Part shown: piece by piece, positions 55,398 through 63,430 of the stretch | Numbering within the stretch: position 1 is the stretch's first letter | Layout of the letters: each line of letters starts with the position of its first letter | Origin: Pyruvatibacter mobilis | GTDB lineage: Bacteria > Pseudomonadota > Alphaproteobacteria > CGMCC-115125 | Assembly: GCF_012848855.1 (NCBI RefSeq) | Contig: NZ_CP051630.1 | Span: 3,141,501 to 3,205,500, forward strand | DNA length: 64,000 nucleotides | Direction of reading: 5' to 3' | Notes under the pieces: model-generated | Databases searched by the model: none | The model's input: only the letters and a program-made list of their open reading frames with translations | Told to the model about the DNA's origin: nothing | Translations under genes and position numbers: made by a program

Positions 55398-56210
55398 ATG
55401 AGCCAGCACTGGACGCTCGACGATATCGATTGGCAGGCCTTCGACGCCGCCAAGGTCGATGCCGACCTCCTGCGTACGGTGAAGGCCGCCTCGCTGGTGG
55501 AGGCCAATGCGCCTGACTATGTGAGCTATCTCAGCGTCGTTTTCGCCGATGACCCGGCCATGCTCGACGAGCTGGAACGCTGGGGTGCGGAGGAAGAGCA
55601 GCACGGGGCAGCCCTTGCGCGCTGGGCCGAGCTTGCCGATCCCGGTTTCTCCTTCGACAAGGCTCTCAAGGAGTTCCAGGACGGCTATTCCATTCCGCAG
55701 GATGTGGAAGAATCAACGCGCGGCAGCCGCGGCGGTGAGTTGCTCGCGCGCTGCGTGGTTGAGACGGGCACGTCGTCATTTTATTCCGCCATCCGCGATG
55801 CCAGTGATGAGCCGGTGCTGAAGGAAATCGCAGGCCGCCTCGCCCGTGATGAGTTCAATCACTACAAGCTCTTCTACGACCACTTCCAGCGCTACGAAAC
55901 GGATGTGCCGTCCAAGCTGCGCCGGCTGAAGATCGCTCTCGGGCGTGTCAGCGAGGCGGACGATGATGAGCTGTCCTATGCCTATTACTGCGCAAACCGT
56001 CCGAACGCGGATTATGACCGAGAGGGCTGCGCCAAGGCCTACCAGGCCCGCGCGCTTGGCCTGTACCAGCGCCGCCACACTGACAGGCTTGTTGCGATGA
56101 TTGCCAATGCCTGCGGCATCCGTATCGGCCCGCGGGTGGCCAAGCCCCTGACCTCGGTCGTCTGGTGGGGCTTTTCGACCCACGCCAAGCGGTTGGCTGA
56201 CGCAGCCTGA
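55398..56210 (+). CDS. Ferritin-like di-iron protein
   Basis: A 270-residue protein whose first 180 residues look like a four-helix bundle with di-iron ligands: Glu in KAASLVEANAPDYVSYL, ExxH in GAEEEQHGAALARW, Glu in CVVETGTSSFYSAI and ExxH in ARDEFNHYKLFYDHF. This spacing matches rubrerythrin- or acyl-ACP-desaturase-like ferritin superfamily proteins. The C-terminal region is basic and aromatic and unassigned. It has its own start after the atp terminator. Iron storage, an oxidase or a peroxidase role are all possible. Confidence 0.82.
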   Translation: MSQHWTLDDIDWQAFDAAKVDADLLRTVKAASLVEANAPDYVSYLSVVFADDPAMLDELERWGAEEEQHGAALARWAELADPGFSFDKALKEFQDGYSIPQDVEESTRGSRGGELLARCVVETGTSSFYSAIRDASDEPVLKEIAGRLARDEFNHYKLFYDHFQRYETDVPSKLRRLKIALGRVSEADDDELSYAYYCANRPNADYDREGCAKAYQARALGLYQRRHTDRLVAMIANACGIRIGPRVAKPLTSVVWWGFSTHAKRLADAA

Positions 56211-56231: not shown

Positions 56232-56720
56232 TTACTTCCCCGTCAGATGGGCGAAAGCCTCTATCACTTGCTCATAGACCGGGCGCTTGAACTCGATGAT
56301 GAGGTCGGGCAGCACCTGGGCATCTTCCCAGCGCCAGGCATCGAACTCGTCGTCCTCGGCCTGTGACAGATCGATCTCGTCATCGCTGCCGAGATAGCGC
56401 ATGGCGAACCATTTCTGCTTCTGGCCGCAATATTTGCCTTTCAGCGCTTTGCCCAGCAGATGCGCCGGCAGGTCGTAACTGAACCATCCATCGCTTTCCC
56501 CGATGACGTCCACCTGGGAAATGCCGGTCTCTTCCTCAAGCTCACGCAAGGCTGCGGGCAGCGGGTCCTCGCCCGCGTCTATACCGCCCTGGGGCATTTG
56601 CCAGGAGCCGGGCTCGTCCTGTTGCACCACCCGGTCCACGGCCCTGCGGCCGATCCAGACCTTTCCGTCCTTGTTGAGCAGCATGATGCCCACGCAGGGG
56701 CGGTAGGGAAGAGACGTCAT
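56232..56720 (-). CDS. rppH: RNA pyrophosphohydrolase
   Basis: A 162-residue Nudix hydrolase that removes pyrophosphate from the 5' end of mRNA and so starts decay. PYRPCVGIMLLNKDGKVWIG is the RppH start and the Nudix box GGIDAGEDPLPAALRELEEE ends with TGI. YCGQKQKWFAMRYLG is also diagnostic. I chose ATG 56720; the longer frame runs into the upstream gene. It follows the deacetylase gene by 37 bases and converges on the ferritin-like gene. Confidence 0.95.
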   Translation of the reverse strand: MTSLPYRPCVGIMLLNKDGKVWIGRRAVDRVVQQDEPGSWQMPQGGIDAGEDPLPAALRELEEETGISQVDVIGESDGWFSYDLPAHLLGKALKGKYCGQKQKWFAMRYLGSDDEIDLSQAEDDEFDAWRWEDAQVLPDLIIEFKRPVYEQVIEAFAHLTGK

Positions 56721-56757
56721 GCAGGAGGCCCCGGGTCGGGTGTACGCGGAAGGGTGC

Positions 56758-57987
56758 TCAGCGGTCTGCCAGCACCGCGGAGACTGGTACCAGATCAATG
56801 CCCTTGGCATCCAGTTTTTCAGCCCACATGGCAACGCGTTCCACGGTAACGGGAAGGGCGGTGCCTATGCCCAGCGCCATGCCGGACTGGCGCGCGCTGT
56901 CCTCCAGCTCCTTCAGGGCCTGGTCAATCTGGCGCGGTGACTTCGTTGCGTCGATTACCTGGCTCCCCCTGGCCCAGTCGAAGCCTGCTTCCGGAACGCT
57001 TTCCACGGTAGCACTGCGGACCGTGCTCCCGGTGTCGATGAAGCCAAGGCCCCGCAGCTTGAGGGCGGTGAGGATGGGCGACAGAGCGTCTGTTTCAGAG
57101 AGGAAGCGGCCACCCTGGCGGTTGACGGTAGCGAAATATCCGGTGCCGCGCGCCAGCAGCCATTCCAGGCGCTTGCGATTGGCGTCTTCCGGCAGGCTCG
57201 TCAGCAGGGTGTAGGGGCCGGGATCATTGTCAGGATAGTTGAACGGCTCCATGGGAAGCTCGAGCACCACTTCATGTCCGTCGACGCGGGCGGCATTGAT
57301 CTGGTTCTGCAGGTCACCGGAATAGGGTGTGAAGCCCAGCGAGATGTCCGCTGGAAGCTGCTCCAGTGCGCGCTCGGCAAAGGTGCGGTTGAGGCCGAAA
57401 CCCGTGATCAGGATCGCCACGCGCGGCCGGGCTTCGACCCCGGTGGCAGGCTTGGTGAAGGGCCGTGCGTAGCTTGCAACAGCACGGGCGCCATCGCCGC
57501 TGATAATCGGCAGAAGGCCGTTGTCAGTTTCTTCGAACAGGCCCGCGATCGGTGCCTCGCGCAGGGGCGCGCCTAGGGGCAGCGGCTCCAGGCTGCCGAT
57601 CTCCTGCAGGCCACCTGGTTCAGCAGATGCGTCAGCCGTGTCTCCGGGTTCTGCCGCGTCCTGCGCAGCCACCACCACTGGCTCATCGGGCGGCGGTGCC
57701 GTGTCAGTCGGCGGCGTGTCCGTGCCATCCAGCACCTGGGGAGGCGGCGGGGCGGTCACCGTATCGCCGCTCAGGATGGTGCGGCCCCCGCCGCCTTCGG
57801 TGTTGAGGGGCACCACGAATTGTCCCGGCTGCGGGCCACCCGTAAAGGACAGCCAGACCAGCAGGCCGCCGATGATCACCGCCAGCGTGAAAACGGCGAT
57901 GGCGAGCGGGTTGAGGCGGCTGCGCGGGGCATCCGTCTCGTCGCTGGCGGTTTCGGCCGGATCGGTGTCGGGGGATAAGGCGGTCAT
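56758..57987 (-). CDS. Divergent polysaccharide deacetylase family protein
   Basis: A 409-residue protein with one N-terminal transmembrane helix (LAIAVFTLAVIIGGLLVWLSF), a Pro/Thr/Asp-rich periplasmic linker (about 70-150), and a C-terminal YibQ/DUF610-type domain: RPRVAILITGFGLNRTFAE, LPADISLGFTPYSGDLQ, VVLELPMEPFNYPDNDPGP and GLGFIDTGSTVRS. The ctpA-deacetylase-rppH order is common in alphaproteobacteria. A cell-envelope glycan role is likely, but the substrate is not known. Confidence 0.9.
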   Translation of the reverse strand: MTALSPDTDPAETASDETDAPRSRLNPLAIAVFTLAVIIGGLLVWLSFTGGPQPGQFVVPLNTEGGGGRTILSGDTVTAPPPPQVLDGTDTPPTDTAPPPDEPVVVAAQDAAEPGDTADASAEPGGLQEIGSLEPLPLGAPLREAPIAGLFEETDNGLLPIISGDGARAVASYARPFTKPATGVEARPRVAILITGFGLNRTFAERALEQLPADISLGFTPYSGDLQNQINAARVDGHEVVLELPMEPFNYPDNDPGPYTLLTSLPEDANRKRLEWLLARGTGYFATVNRQGGRFLSETDALSPILTALKLRGLGFIDTGSTVRSATVESVPEAGFDWARGSQVIDATKSPRQIDQALKELEDSARQSGMALGIGTALPVTVERVAMWAEKLDAKGIDLVPVSAVLADR

Positions 57988-58202: not shown

Positions 58203-59540
58203 CTAGTTGGGGATCGGCTCCATGGCACCGGACGTGCCTGCCTTGGCCGTCGGCGTTGCCGCCGGGTTGTTGCGGTCGAAGCTGCGCTTGCCGAGCACGA
58301 GGTCACGGCCATAGATCAGCTGTAAATCGTCCTTCGGGTCTTCCGGCACGTAGGCGGAGGATCCACCCTTTTCGTCGTCATCGTCCCCGGCAAGATGGCC
58401 TGCGAGGCCTGCTTCGCCCGTGGTGCGGATGTCCTTGTCCTCTTCGACGTTCTGCTCGACCTTCACGTCCGGCGCGATGCCCTTGGCCTGGATCGACCGG
58501 CCGGCAGGGGTGTAATAGCGCGCCGTGGTGAGGCGGATGGCACCGTCGGAGCCAAGCGGAATGATGGTCTGGACGGACCCCTTGCCGAAGGAACGGGTGC
58601 CGATGACAACGCCGCGCTCGTGATCCTGCAGCGCACCTGCAACGATCTCCGATGCTGAGGCGGAGCCGCCATTGACCAGCACCACAACGGGCTTGCCGTT
58701 GGCGAGGTCGCCGGGCCGTGAATTGTAGCGCTGGGTATCTTCCGGATAGCGGCCGCGGGTGGACACCACTTCGCCCTGCTCTAGGAAGATGTCAGACACT
58801 TCGATGGCCTGATCCAGGAGACCGCCCGGGTTGTTGCGAAGGTCGAGCACGTAGCCCGGCACATCCGCCATGTCCTTCAGGGCCGCGCGCACGCCGTCGG
58901 CGGTCTGCTCGTTGAAGGTGGTGATGCGGATATAGCCCACACCGTTGTCGCGCTTGTAGCGCACCGACTTGATGCGGATGATATCGCGCACGATGGTTAC
59001 GTCGAAGGCCTCGGTCTTGCCCTCGCGCACCACGGTAACTGTAATGGGTGCGTTGACCGGCCCGCGCATCTTCTCGACCGCTTCGGAAAGGGTCAGGCCG
59101 AGCACCGGGTCGCCGTCGAGATGGGTGATCAGGTCATTGGCCTGGAGGCCCGCCTTGTCAGCCGGGGTGTCGTCGATCGGCGCCACCACCTTCACAAAGC
59201 CCTCTTCCATGGTGACCTCGATCCCGAGGCCACCAAACTCGCCGCGGGTCTGCACCTGCATGTCGCGGAAGGTCTTGGGGTTGAGGTAGCTCGAATGCGG
59301 GTCCAGCGAGGTCAGCATGCCGTTGATGGCATTGTCGATCAGTTCGCTGTCGACAGGCTCTTCCACATAGTCAGCGCGGACGCGTTCGAACACGTCCCCG
59401 AAAAGGTCAAGCTGCCGGTAGGTTTCGGAGCTGGCTGCTTCCGCACCGCCGCGGGAGGGACCGGCATCCAACGCAAAAACACCCACAAGAGCGAGGCTCA
59501 CAAGGCCCGCTGCTCCTGCAATCACCGTCCGGTGCATCAT
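58203..59540 (-). CDS. ctpA: Carboxy-terminal processing protease, S41 family
   Basis: A 445-residue periplasmic protease with an N-terminal signal/anchor (TVIAGAAGLVSLALVGVFAL), a PDZ domain (GLGIEVTMEEGFVKVVAPID) and the Ser/Lys catalytic domain: YVLDLRNNPGGLLDQAIEV, serine in LVNGGSASASEIVAGAL, lysine in RSFGKGSVQTIIPL. It lies 97 bases after the EnvC-like gene. Such proteases trim envelope proteins and, with LytM partners, control peptidoglycan hydrolases. Confidence 0.96.
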   Translation of the reverse strand: MMHRTVIAGAAGLVSLALVGVFALDAGPSRGGAEAASSETYRQLDLFGDVFERVRADYVEEPVDSELIDNAINGMLTSLDPHSSYLNPKTFRDMQVQTRGEFGGLGIEVTMEEGFVKVVAPIDDTPADKAGLQANDLITHLDGDPVLGLTLSEAVEKMRGPVNAPITVTVVREGKTEAFDVTIVRDIIRIKSVRYKRDNGVGYIRITTFNEQTADGVRAALKDMADVPGYVLDLRNNPGGLLDQAIEVSDIFLEQGEVVSTRGRYPEDTQRYNSRPGDLANGKPVVVLVNGGSASASEIVAGALQDHERGVVIGTRSFGKGSVQTIIPLGSDGAIRLTTARYYTPAGRSIQAKGIAPDVKVEQNVEEDKDIRTTGEAGLAGHLAGDDDDEKGGSSAYVPEDPKDDLQLIYGRDLVLGKRSFDRNNPAATPTAKAGTSGAMEPIPN

Positions 59541-59637: not shown

Positions 59638-60912
59638 TCAGGCCGGACGGGACGCAAATCTGATCCACGGTGCCGGATCGATGGGGGCACCGTCTTTTCG
59701 CAGTTCAATATAGAGCAGCGGGCCGCGGCTGGCATCCCCGGCGGTTCCTCTGCCCGTTCTGGGGCCCTGTCCGGTCTTGGCGGCTTGTTCGGGGAGCCGT
59801 CCGACGGGTTCCCCGGCAAGCACCTGCTGGCCCGGTGTCGCATAAATCTCCGCCAGGCCGGCCAGGACGATAAGGTAATTGTCGCCCGGTGTGATTATCA
59901 ACACGTTGCCATAGCTGCGAAACGGGCCCGCAAACACGATTTCGGCATCCGCGGGGCTTACGACCTGGGCACGCGGGCGCCCCTCAAGGCTCAGTCCCTG
60001 TATCTCGTCACCACTCAGATCCTCTGCCCCGAAGGCCCGCACTATGCGCCCGGAGGCCGGGCTGCGCAGATGGCCGCGCAGGCTGGCAAAATCCGGCCGT
60101 ACGGCTTCCTCAGCCAGATCGGGTGTCAGGGCCGCCACGGTCGGCACGTCGCGTTCAAGCCCGCCCAGAAGGTCACGCAGGGACTTGGCGCGCCCGGCGA
60201 GGCTTGCATAGCGTTCAGCTGCGCGTCTGGCGTCCGCCGTCGTCACCAGCTCTTCTTCGCGCTTTGCCACCAGCAATTCGTCAATCCGGCGTTGTTCGGC
60301 CTCCAGGGCTTCTGCATCCCGGGCCAGTTGGCGGCTTTCTGCCTCAATGGTGCGGGTGAGATCGTCGAGGGCGCGGATCTGGGCCGAGATTTCGTCGGCT
60401 ACCGATTTGAGTTCCGGCACCAGCGTACCCAGAAGGATGGCCCCGCGGGCAGCTGAGAGAGCATCCTGCGGGTTCACCAGCAGGGCCGGCGGCGGGTCCA
60501 AGTCGAGGCGCTGCAGGGCGGCGAGGGCTTCCACGAGCTGTTCCCGCCGGGCGGCCAGGATGGCCTCGCTAACGGCGCGGGCAGCGGTCAGGCCATCAAG
60601 ATGTCCGGCCCGGTCGGCAATCGCGCTTTCAAGCGCCTGAGCGCGGTCACCGGCCGCCACCAGTTGCTCCTGCAACTGGCGGACAATGCGGGCGGCGGCG
60701 CGGGCACGTGTCTGTGCCTCATCGCGGGAGATCTCCGCCCCGTCCAGGGCGCGCTCCACTTCCAGCAGTTCTTCAGCCTGGCTGGGATCGACGCGGGTTT
60801 CCTGCGCCGGGGCAGCCAGTGCCAGGAACGGAAGCAGGATGAGTGCCCCCAGCACGCGCAAGGGGGCGGGGTGTCCCGCAATCCGGACCCGTCCCCGTTC
60901 AGGATGCCGCAT
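59638..60912 (-). CDS. EnvC-like murein hydrolase activator with degenerate LytM domain
   Basis: A 424-residue periplasmic protein: signal peptide (VLGALILLPFLALAAPA), a long coiled coil (about 35-260, e.g. AEELLEVERALDGAEIS), and a C-terminal M23/LytM fold (GRIVRAFGAEDLSGDEIQ, YGNVLIITPGDNYLIVLAGL, LLYIELRKDGAPIDPAPW). The zinc-binding histidines of active LytM enzymes are replaced, as in E. coli EnvC, so it should activate amidases instead of cutting peptidoglycan. Its start overlaps the end of the GpmI-like gene by 14 bases, implying coupled translation. Confidence 0.9.
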   Translation of the reverse strand: MRHPERGRVRIAGHPAPLRVLGALILLPFLALAAPAQETRVDPSQAEELLEVERALDGAEISRDEAQTRARAAARIVRQLQEQLVAAGDRAQALESAIADRAGHLDGLTAARAVSEAILAARREQLVEALAALQRLDLDPPPALLVNPQDALSAARGAILLGTLVPELKSVADEISAQIRALDDLTRTIEAESRQLARDAEALEAEQRRIDELLVAKREEELVTTADARRAAERYASLAGRAKSLRDLLGGLERDVPTVAALTPDLAEEAVRPDFASLRGHLRSPASGRIVRAFGAEDLSGDEIQGLSLEGRPRAQVVSPADAEIVFAGPFRSYGNVLIITPGDNYLIVLAGLAEIYATPGQQVLAGEPVGRLPEQAAKTGQGPRTGRGTAGDASRGPLLYIELRKDGAPIDPAPWIRFASRPA

Positions 60913-62449
60913 CCAGCCCCTCCGGCAGCGTCAGTAACGGCGTCGATATGCCGCCAGTGTCCCGGTGCGGCATGACCTCCAGCGGCAGGCCGGCCAGTGC
61001 CAGCAGGGTGGGTGCCACATTGGCAAGGGTGCCGGTTGCAAGGGGCGTCTCCTGCGTCACCGCACCGCCATGGATCAGCAAGGGCAGGGCGCTGGCGGCG
61101 GCAAGGCTCGTGTCGGTGCCCATGGCGACGAGGGTACCGCCGCGGCGTTCGAGAATGGCCGCAAGGCGGCCCAACGCCTTGTCCTGCTGCTCGACAATGC
61201 GGCGGGCTGCCGAGCCCGAAGCCATGGTGCCCAGACTGCGGGCTGAGGCGGGCACGCCGCCCAGCAGGGCAAAGATCACATCGGTTTCACCCTGCTTGAT
61301 CCATTGGACCGCAGCATCCGCCACATCAAGGGCCGTGGGCGCCGGGACAGCGCGGCTGGCGGCGAGGCGGCAGCCCTCCATGCTTTCCGCCCACAGGCCG
61401 TGCTGGGCCTGCGGCACAGCCATGGCGACGGTGAGGCCTGCATCGCGCAGCACGGATGGCAGGCGGGGCTGAAGGGGCTCAAGCGTCAGCAAGGGCTGCA
61501 ACGCCGCAGCGCGGCTTGCAGGCAGGGACGGCGGTGCTGACTGGGTCCAGCCGATCACGCGGCGACAGGCAGACAGGGTCACGGGGCGGCTTGCCGGAAT
61601 GGTAAGGCCGCCTTCCGGCAGCAGGGTGCGCAGGAGCGGCGTCATGCCTTCGGCCTGCGGATGCAGCACCAACAGCGCATCATCACCGCGCATGCCGGGA
61701 TAGGCGATGTCCGCCATCGGGGTGATGTCGCCATCATTGATGCCGCCCCGGTTCTGCGCATCGATGAACTGCCCGAGACCGTCGCGGGTCTGCGGGTCTG
61801 CGTCCACCATTGCGTTGCGCACGAGGGCCAGCGCCTTGTCGTCCGCGGTGCTATCGAGGGCAAAGGCACGGCCGGAGATGGTGGCGAACTGAACGCCCTC
61901 GACGCCGGCCACATCTTCGCGGAACTCGTGCATGGCCTTGAGGGCCGCATCGGGGGCACTGTCTCGTCCGTCCAGGATCGCGTGCACCCAGACGCGGATG
62001 CCTTCATAGGCAAGCGTCGCGGCAATGCGGGCGGCATGGGCCGTAAACCCCTCGATGCCCGAAGGTGTCAGGCAGCAAAGAAGGTGACAATCACCGCCGA
62101 TACGGCTGAGGTCATGGGCGAAGGCGCTGAACCCCCGATCCGCCATCAGCCCGCCATCCGCACGCATCAGCGCGTCGAGGCGGGCGCGGGGGTCCTGAGG
62201 CTCCTGGCCTTCAGCGATGGCGGTGAGGCCGGTTGCCAGGCTTGCGGGCACAGGGGCTGGGGTCAGGGTGGTTGCCGCGGCTCTGCGTGCCAGGCGGTTG
62301 AAGGCCGGTGTGCGGGCACTGAAGGCAGGCAGGCGCGCATCCGCTGCGCCCGCGCCCCATCCCTGGAGCAACGCAATTACGAGCGGACGCGCGGGCCCGT
62401 CCTCTACGGACCCGGAGCCGCCTTGTCTGGATCGGCCGAAAAGTCTCAT
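60899..62449 (-). CDS. Degenerate phosphoglycerate mutase homologue (GpmI-like, probably inactive)
   Basis: An uninterrupted 516-residue protein with the length and landmarks of 2,3-bisphosphoglycerate-independent phosphoglycerate mutase: VWVHAILDGRDSAPDAALKA and FATISGRAFALDS remain. But LDGWG is LLQGWG (Q29 for the metal-binding Asp), the GNSEVGH motif with the phosphorylated serine is absent, GGVHSH reads SGIEGF, NFRxDRAR reads LHPQAEGMTP, AETEKYAH reads VPQAQHGL, and NPDMVGHTG and TADHGN are missing. It is therefore unlikely to be a mutase. The place between rlmH and envC is that of a normal gpmI in relatives. It may be a repurposed envelope-linked pseudoenzyme. Confidence 0.8.
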   Translation of the reverse strand: MRLFGRSRQGGSGSVEDGPARPLVIALLQGWGAGAADARLPAFSARTPAFNRLARRAAATTLTPAPVPASLATGLTAIAEGQEPQDPRARLDALMRADGGLMADRGFSAFAHDLSRIGGDCHLLCCLTPSGIEGFTAHAARIAATLAYEGIRVWVHAILDGRDSAPDAALKAMHEFREDVAGVEGVQFATISGRAFALDSTADDKALALVRNAMVDADPQTRDGLGQFIDAQNRGGINDGDITPMADIAYPGMRGDDALLVLHPQAEGMTPLLRTLLPEGGLTIPASRPVTLSACRRVIGWTQSAPPSLPASRAAALQPLLTLEPLQPRLPSVLRDAGLTVAMAVPQAQHGLWAESMEGCRLAASRAVPAPTALDVADAAVQWIKQGETDVIFALLGGVPASARSLGTMASGSAARRIVEQQDKALGRLAAILERRGGTLVAMGTDTSLAAASALPLLIHGGAVTQETPLATGTLANVAPTLLALAGLPLEVMPHRDTGGISTPLLTLPEGLDAAS

Positions 62450-62506: not shown

Positions 62507-62971
62507 TCAATCGCGATGATAGGGGTGGCGGGAAAGAATGGATATGGCCCTGTATATCTGTTCGAGCAGCATGATCCTTGCCAGCATATGCGGCCATGTC
62601 ATGGCGCTGAGCGACAGTTTTGCCCGGGCCCTGTCCAGTACCGCACGGCCATGCCCGTCCGCCCCGCCTATCAGGAAGGCGATGTCGCGGTTGCCGTCAT
62701 CCTTGAGCGTATCGAGCCAGGCGGCGAAGTCGCGGCTGGATTTCTGGCCGCCATGCTCGTCCATGGCGATGATCACGGCATTGTCCGGCACAGCCGCCAG
62801 AAGCGCTTCGGCCTCCTGGTCGCTGTCTTTCCGGGCCTCCAGTTCGATGACCGAGACATCGGTGATGCCGAGATTGCGGCCCTGCGTGGTGGCGCGGGCC
62901 AGGTACTCATCCGCCAGGGCGCGCTCGTTCTTGTCGCGCATGCGCCCTATGGCGCAAACGGTGATGCGCAT
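62507..62971 (-). CDS. rlmH: 23S rRNA (pseudouridine1915-N3)-methyltransferase
   Basis: A 154-residue SPOUT methyltransferase that modifies pseudouridine 1915 in helix 69 of 23S rRNA. MRITVCAIGRMRD, the SAM-binding FLIGGADGHG and MTWPHMLARIMLLEQIYRAI with HPYHR at the end are diagnostic. ATG 62971 is preferred over a start eight codons upstream. It lies 72 bases after rsfS, its usual partner. Confidence 0.96.
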   Translation of the reverse strand: MRITVCAIGRMRDKNERALADEYLARATTQGRNLGITDVSVIELEARKDSDQEAEALLAAVPDNAVIIAMDEHGGQKSSRDFAAWLDTLKDDGNRDIAFLIGGADGHGRAVLDRARAKLSLSAMTWPHMLARIMLLEQIYRAISILSRHPYHRD

Positions 62972-63043
62972 TGAGGTCGTCTCACAGGCCCGCACGCGGT
63001 CATGCGGGCGCTCATGGCCTGCCGGGCGGGGCCGGCAGGATGG

Positions 63044-63430
63044 TCAGTTGGCCAGCTGGTCTTCCGGCATGTCAGAGGACCAGAGACGCTCGAGATTGTA
63101 AAACTCGCGCACCTCGGGCCTGAACACATGCACCACGATGTCACCGGCGTCGATCAGAACCCAATCGCAATGGGTCATGCCTTCGACGCGCGGAGACTTG
63201 CAGCCTGCCTTCTTGAAAGCCTCGACCAGGTAATCGGCTACCGAGCCCACATGGCGCTGTGACCGGCCGCTCGCGATGACCATGCCATCGGCGAGGGACG
63301 ATTTGCCTGCGAGATCTATGGAGACGATATCCTCGGCCTTGGTGTCTTCGAGACACGCAAGGGCGGCGTCGCGGAGCCGCTCGGACTGGTTTGATGTCAC
63401 GGAAGGTGACGGCGACTGTGTTTGTGGCAT
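63044..63430 (-). CDS. rsfS: Ribosome silencing factor RsfS
   Basis: A 128-residue protein of the Iojap family that binds L14 and blocks subunit joining. AEDIVSIDLAGKSSLADGMV, IASGRSQRHVGSVADYLVEA and WVLIDAGDIVVHVFRPEVRE followed by FYNLERLW are the family core. The usual upstream nadD is missing here; an EgtD-like gene occupies that side. Confidence 0.96.
   Translation of the reverse strand: MPQTQSPSPSVTSNQSERLRDAALACLEDTKAEDIVSIDLAGKSSLADGMVIASGRSQRHVGSVADYLVEAFKKAGCKSPRVEGMTHCDWVLIDAGDIVVHVFRPEVREFYNLERLWSSDMPEDQLAN

Follow-up and report, generated by a model that had tools for sequence, protein, structure and literature searches.

Cofactor-independent phosphoglycerate mutases (iPGM, encoded by gpmI) carry two metal sites, one built from Asp, His and His and the other from Asp, Ser, Asp and His; in the C. 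elegans enzyme these are D426/H430/H485 and D37/S86/D467/H468 (PMC5382265). Their transferase domain is where the substrate docks (PMC8113725). Parvibaculum lavamentivorans is discussed by Foster et al. (2010) among genomes with both dPGM and iPGM, and its S. pombe-like short dPGM was noted in the same work (PMC2964296). A precedent for regulation by a member of the alkaline phosphatase superfamily is PbgA/YejM/LapC, which controls LpxC proteolysis (PMC11025326, PMC7240159), although a metalloenzyme activity has also been claimed for YejM (PMC7576196).

The DNA analysed here (the window, 64,000 nucleotides) had been described in an earlier note as containing a full-length GpmI homologue of 516 codons that has lost its active site. 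The frame is indeed uninterrupted (ATG start, TGA stop), and its product passes the Pfam cut-offs for both domains of the family (iPGM_N, 63 bits against 27; Metalloenzyme, 26 bits against 24.3). We refer to this protein and its counterparts in other genomes as dead GpmI. The relevant features of the window are as follows.

60899–62449, minus strand: catalytically dead GpmI orthologue, 516 aa (frame, Pfam, catalytic-site alignment)
61712–62158, minus strand: transferase (iPGM_N) domain, aa 98–246, constraint retained (Pfam match and column entropy)
60986–61342, minus strand: phosphatase-like (Metalloenzyme) domain, aa 370–488, constraint relaxed, metal ligands gone (Pfam match and column entropy)
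62207–62254, minus strand: former nucleophile loop, aa 66–81, shortened, no serine aligned with Ser62 (alignment)
61220–61267, minus strand: former D403/H407 metal motif, aa 395–410, now GGVPASARSLG (alignment)
61082–61132, minus strand: former D444-H445/H462 metal loop, aa 440–456, deleted or replaced (alignment)
61961–61972, minus strand: retained DGRD motif, aa 160–163, equivalent to canonical R153 and D154; D154 invariant in 29/29 dead proteins
61868–61870, minus strand: retained R194, equivalent to canonical R185, invariant in 29/29 dead proteins
61679–61690, minus strand: new invariant R-x-D-D, aa 254–257; position 256 is Gly in 30/30 active enzymes and position 254 is variable there
61142–61180, minus strand: new conserved K424, A431 and R436, all on one predicted helix
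59638–60912, minus strand: EnvC-like gene with export signal, overlapping dead gpmI by 14 bases
58203–59540, minus strand: ctpA, S41 C-terminal processing peptidase
56758–57987, minus strand: yibQ-type divergent polysaccharide deacetylase (Pfam)
56232–56834, minus strand: rppH (Nudix), end of the ancestral cluster (gene-order comparison)
62507–62995, minus strand: rlmH, upstream neighbour of dead gpmI
63044–63430, minus strand: rsfS, upstream neighbour of dead gpmI

The only solved relatives of the window protein by sequence are cofactor-independent phosphoglycerate mutases. What it shares with GpmI/iPGM (TIGR01307; B. stearothermophilus 1ejj and 1o98) is the gene slot, the two-domain fold, the full length and the residues D154 and R185; what sets it apart is the absence of a nucleophile and metal site, the shortened catalytic loops and a score of 62.6 bits on the NCBIfam equivalog TIGR01307, which misses the cut-off of 330.65 widely. 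One active homologue scores 645.5. Dead copies from Parvibaculaceae (L058 and L010) reach 308 and 324 bits, only just under the cut-off, so relatives somewhat closer than these may be annotated as active gpmI. Automated annotation is corrected in this respect, as the dead genes clear the Pfam thresholds and resemble gpmI when the distribution of mutases is surveyed.

Catalytic integrity was scored at 15 positions in B. stearothermophilus numbering. By motif alignment, we take the C. elegans metal ligands to correspond to D403/H407/H462 and D12/S62/D444/H445. The window protein keeps three of the 15 residues (R153, D154 and R185). All seven metal-site residues (D12, S62, D403, H407, D444, H445 and H462) are replaced or deleted; counted without the serine, the two-metal ligands (D403, H407, H462, D12, D444 and H445) score 0/6. 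A serine beside the lost nucleophile, at the N61 position, was considered as a substitute and ruled out, as no metal ligand is left. Three of the eight substrate residues (H123, R153, D154, R185, R191, R261, R264 and K336) are kept, whereas H123, R191, R261, R264 and K336 are replaced or deleted. The assertion that the substrate arginines had been replaced thus holds for R191, R261 and R264 and fails for R153 and R185. Three congeneric genomes carry the same protein at 62–63% identity with identical losses, which excludes chance or sequence error.

Across the 29 dead proteins compared, Ser62 is missing from every one. The serine and D444/H445/H462 loops of the window protein are shorter, by about eight residues or more, than those of dead relatives from the order discussed below as Parvibaculales. 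Catalytic sites have gone no faster than other canonical-invariant sites in the window protein (3/15 kept against 27/100, p = 0.76); divergence in this order is so high that preferential loss is not detectable. Dead Parvibaculales proteins, by comparison, have lost catalytic sites preferentially (0.28 kept versus 0.55 at the other canonical-invariant sites).

The AlphaFold model of the window protein (pLDDT 82, pTM 0.83) superimposes on the crystal iPGMs 1ejj and 1o98 with TM scores of 0.77–0.79; a control model of an active alphaproteobacterial enzyme reached 0.87. As predicted, then, the two-domain iPGM fold is retained though the chemistry is lost. Superposition, like sequence comparison, puts no ligand residue back, and loss of the active site stands. 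The closed or open arrangement of the domains was considered as a clue (0.79 for closed forms against 0.45 for 2ify; 0.87 against 0.64 for the active control), and it gave no inference because the active control likewise fits closed forms best. A viral fold library returned weak superfamily matches only. In fold, the periplasmic domain of YejM resembles the model's phosphatase part, a kinship at the level of the superfamily. YejM is membrane-anchored and periplasmic and has no iPGM transferase domain, whereas dead GpmI lacks both a signal peptide and a membrane segment (hydropathy maximum 1.53 over 19 residues). Judged by its sequence, dead GpmI is most likely a soluble, cytosolic protein.

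The order of the window genome (CGMCC-115125) was sampled by four genomes of one genus, the window genome and the three congeners, and all four carry dead GpmI. The closest relative outside this order is dead as well and comes from a sister order, which we take to be Parvibaculales because records with C-terminally identical sequences bear the names Parvibaculum, Parvibaculaceae and Rhodobiaceae (the last from MAGs). GpmI matches were found in 32 of 40 Parvibaculales genomes, and Ser62 is absent from every near-complete copy. The copy in P. lavamentivorans DS-1 (L054) keeps three of the 15 catalytic residues. What is seen is therefore not one decayed gene: dead GpmI is order-wide in two sister orders. 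One Parvibaculaceae genome (G088, L064) has two full-length GpmI-like genes (C22:83113–84663 and C24:303447–304988), representing duplication or contamination (4%).

Outside the two orders, a survey of 386 alphaproteobacterial genomes gave best-scoring proteins that were all 15/15. The GpmIs inspected with complete motifs, alphaproteobacterial and other, were likewise 15/15 with the exception of two from Patescibacteria (L116 and L144), which have 13/15 sites, with R153 changed to K and R264 to S; the substrate site may vary by lineage here. Plasmid-borne matches are at most 31% identical and are mostly labelled ordinary gpmI by annotation. Within the terms tried, we found no literature description of an iPGM pseudoenzyme.

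A search of the whole 3.33 Mb single-contig genome identified a separate true mutase, a GpmA whose score of 346.9 exceeds the equivalog cut-off of 316, and no iPGM-like gene other than dead gpmI. Short-form GpmA is present in 4/4 genomes of the window's order and in 37/40 Parvibaculales, including all 27 of good quality, and the GpmAs of both orders are 68–89% identical to that of the window genome. GpmA was absent from the sampled alphaproteobacterial families that have active gpmI. Dead GpmI, unlike the active GpmI of those families, coexists with GpmA. As the iPGM of P. lavamentivorans keeps only 3/15 catalytic residues, dPGM alone is expected to work there; that its iPGM would not be an enzyme, as its residues lead us to expect, is new relative to Foster et al. 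(2010) (PMC2964296).

The gene order rsfS-rlmH-gpmI-envC-ctpA-yibQ-rppH is common to alphaproteobacterial genomes with dead and with active gpmI. The window gene is a GpmI orthologue in the ancestral gpmI slot, and this position, with the lack of any other iPGM in the genome, rules out a paralogue or lateral gain. A tree branch with support of 100/99 separates the dead proteins from the rest, and four neighbouring genes independently unite the window's order with Parvibaculales (89/89). The cleanest shared derived residue is D256, which is Asp in 29/29 dead and Gly in 30/30 active proteins. Two independent catalytic losses are disfavoured by this branch, by the neighbour-gene tree and by the shared derived residues. 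The simplest reading is a single catalytic loss in the common ancestor, with the long branches a reason for caution.

The slot has another fate elsewhere. Among gpmA-bearing families without gpmI it is closed, and in four cases (G015, G021, G031 and G052) rlmH runs directly into envC or ctpA. In several gpmA-bearing alphaproteobacterial families (L158, L159, L160 and L163), gpmI has gone from between rlmH and envC without a trace. One Parvibaculaceae genus (G060; L157, 5931–7899) has cleanly deleted the dead gene, so that rlmH is followed directly by envC. This clean loss indicates that the function of dead GpmI is dispensable in some settings, and clean gpmI deletions with the operon kept show that the operon can persist without translation of dead gpmI.

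Pairwise dN/dS (Nei–Gojobori, NG86) was used to gauge selection. For dead gpmI it is 0.046–0.048 at dS 0.61 in the closest congeners, 0.05 in one Parvibaculales genus and 0.15–0.18 in Parvibaculum pairs. The close-pair values (0.046–0.18 at dS 0.6–1.0) equal those that the same pairs give for envC and rlmH, and lie at or below those of active gpmI in other pairs (0.11–0.21). The most distant pair, the window gene and a congener, gives 0.24 at dS 1.3, with envC at 0.19. Dead gpmI is under strong purifying selection, with all values far from 1, as the earlier note had supposed in suggesting that the protein was kept by selection. Its dN relative to ctpA is about 1.5–2 times that of active gpmI; selection, though strong, is thus more relaxed than on the enzyme.

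The constraint is unevenly distributed. Mean column entropy in the phosphatase part is 1.61 bits in dead versus 1.17 in active proteins (+0.44), compared with 1.50 versus 1.41 (+0.09) in the transferase domain; constraint has been lost mainly in the former, and the latter is still constrained. Window residues H156, D199, D163 (D154) and R194 (R185) stay invariant among the dead proteins. Sixteen positions are conserved among dead and variable among active proteins, including 140, 144, 147–149, 175, 179, 254, 424, 431 and 436. The newly conserved residues comprise S/H at 147–148, E175, D179, R254 and D256 in the transferase domain and, in the former phosphatase domain, K424, A431 and R436 along a single predicted helix; the window protein deviates from the dead group at 147 and 148, where it has A and Y.

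Loss of catalytic residues in a frame maintained by selection is what marks a pseudoenzyme, and dead gpmI has both, with a binding or regulatory role that is putative. To judge from its residues, dead GpmI would be unable to catalyse the mutase step and very probably has another job. We consider it probable that a gpmI orthologue was freed by GpmA in the common ancestor of the two orders, underwent one loss of catalysis and has persisted as a soluble pseudoenzyme of the cytosol. That ancestor would have relied on the unrelated short-form GpmA, relieving gpmI of glycolytic duty; catalysis would then have been lost a single time, and the dead protein retained for a binding or regulatory role without catalysis. 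Its transferase domain, where the enzyme's substrate docks and where D154 and R185 are invariant, may either continue to bind an anion resembling phosphoglycerate or merely be locked structurally; the residues left might permit such residual binding, although most partner arginines have been lost. A protein partner may be contacted by a surface made of the newly conserved residues, with dead GpmI sensing or scaffolding rather than converting, or these residues could be structural compensation rather than a binding surface. Candidate partners, by way of speculation, are GpmA, other central metabolic enzymes and cytosolic factors of the operon.

The selected role could also be older than the loss. 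Ordinary GpmI might already have had a moonlighting role tied to its conserved neighbourhood, which survived when catalysis passed to GpmA; this would be a sub-case of the pseudoenzyme reading. The conservation of gpmI-envC-ctpA-yibQ across alphaproteobacteria with active enzymes and the keeping of the protein after the handover are in its favour, but other gpmA-bearing families dropped gpmI yet kept envC and/or ctpA, which makes a general accessory role unnecessary, dead GpmI is cytosolic while EnvC is exported, and the active enzymes do not share the newly conserved residues. We regard it as a doubtful, though not negligible, explanation. The neighbours had been read in the earlier note as a pointer to the cell envelope. 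That pointer falls away: the slot is ancestral and active gpmI has identical neighbours, so they are uninformative on the role of the dead protein, which moreover has none of the export features of EnvC. Coordination with glycolysis, also suggested in that note, is a conceivable role.

A more specific version of the pseudoenzyme reading makes dead GpmI a sensor, in which a phosphoglycerate-type metabolite bound in the transferase domain would let the new surface control GpmA or the supply of envelope precursors in gluconeogenic hosts. P. lavamentivorans uses none of the sugars tested (PMC3368416), from which we infer that its mutase step serves mainly gluconeogenesis. Such a role of the step would fit dead GpmI as a regulator of precursor supply; the sensor as a whole seems to us rather unlikely.

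Retained and new residues of the transferase domain might instead form a different active site that works without the metal pair. The invariance of D154 and R185 (window D163 and R194), H156 and D199 and the newly conserved charged residues E175, D179, R254 and D256 are what such a repurposed enzyme would require. No new catalytic motif is recognizable, however, those charged residues that are conserved lie scattered over two domains, and the nucleophile and metals of the known enzyme sit in the phosphatase domain, where constraint is now relaxed. We therefore think a new enzyme improbable.

Overlap with envC raises the question of whether the frame is a relic, kept open only because envC translation is coupled to it at the stop–start overlap or by too little time for decay. 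The 14-base overlap reported earlier is real (60899–60912), and the operon position is also compatible with coupling. Coupling would put no constraint on amino acids, but two separate close pairs give dN/dS values near 0.05, and the distant congeneric pair gives no more than 0.24. The dead clade, with its one loss, extends over two orders, and the gene has been cleanly deleted with the operon intact in G060 and several other gpmA-bearing families. The relic reading is already largely refuted by dN/dS, and we hold it very unlikely. Persistence of mutase activity by an unusual route, for which the retained fold and two substrate arginines might speak, can practically be dismissed given that there is no nucleophile or metal ligand, loops are deleted, K336 and R261/R264 are gone and the genome has a true GpmA.

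When a gene is displaced by a non-orthologous one, the textbook expectation is that it is deleted. This is the course taken in several gpmA-bearing alphaproteobacterial families; here the displaced enzyme has been kept, dead, across two orders. On the pseudoenzyme reading this is a clear natural example of an enzyme turned binding protein, in which the catalytic loss maps to a single event, the replacement enzyme is identified and a neighbouring lineage has since dropped the gene. What use a former glycolytic enzyme may have thereby becomes testable in cultured P. lavamentivorans DS-1. Elsewhere in the window, positions 55398–56210 (plus strand) encode a protein of 270 aa beside atpC, with weak rubrerythrin- or desaturase-like Pfam matches (E ∼0.005).
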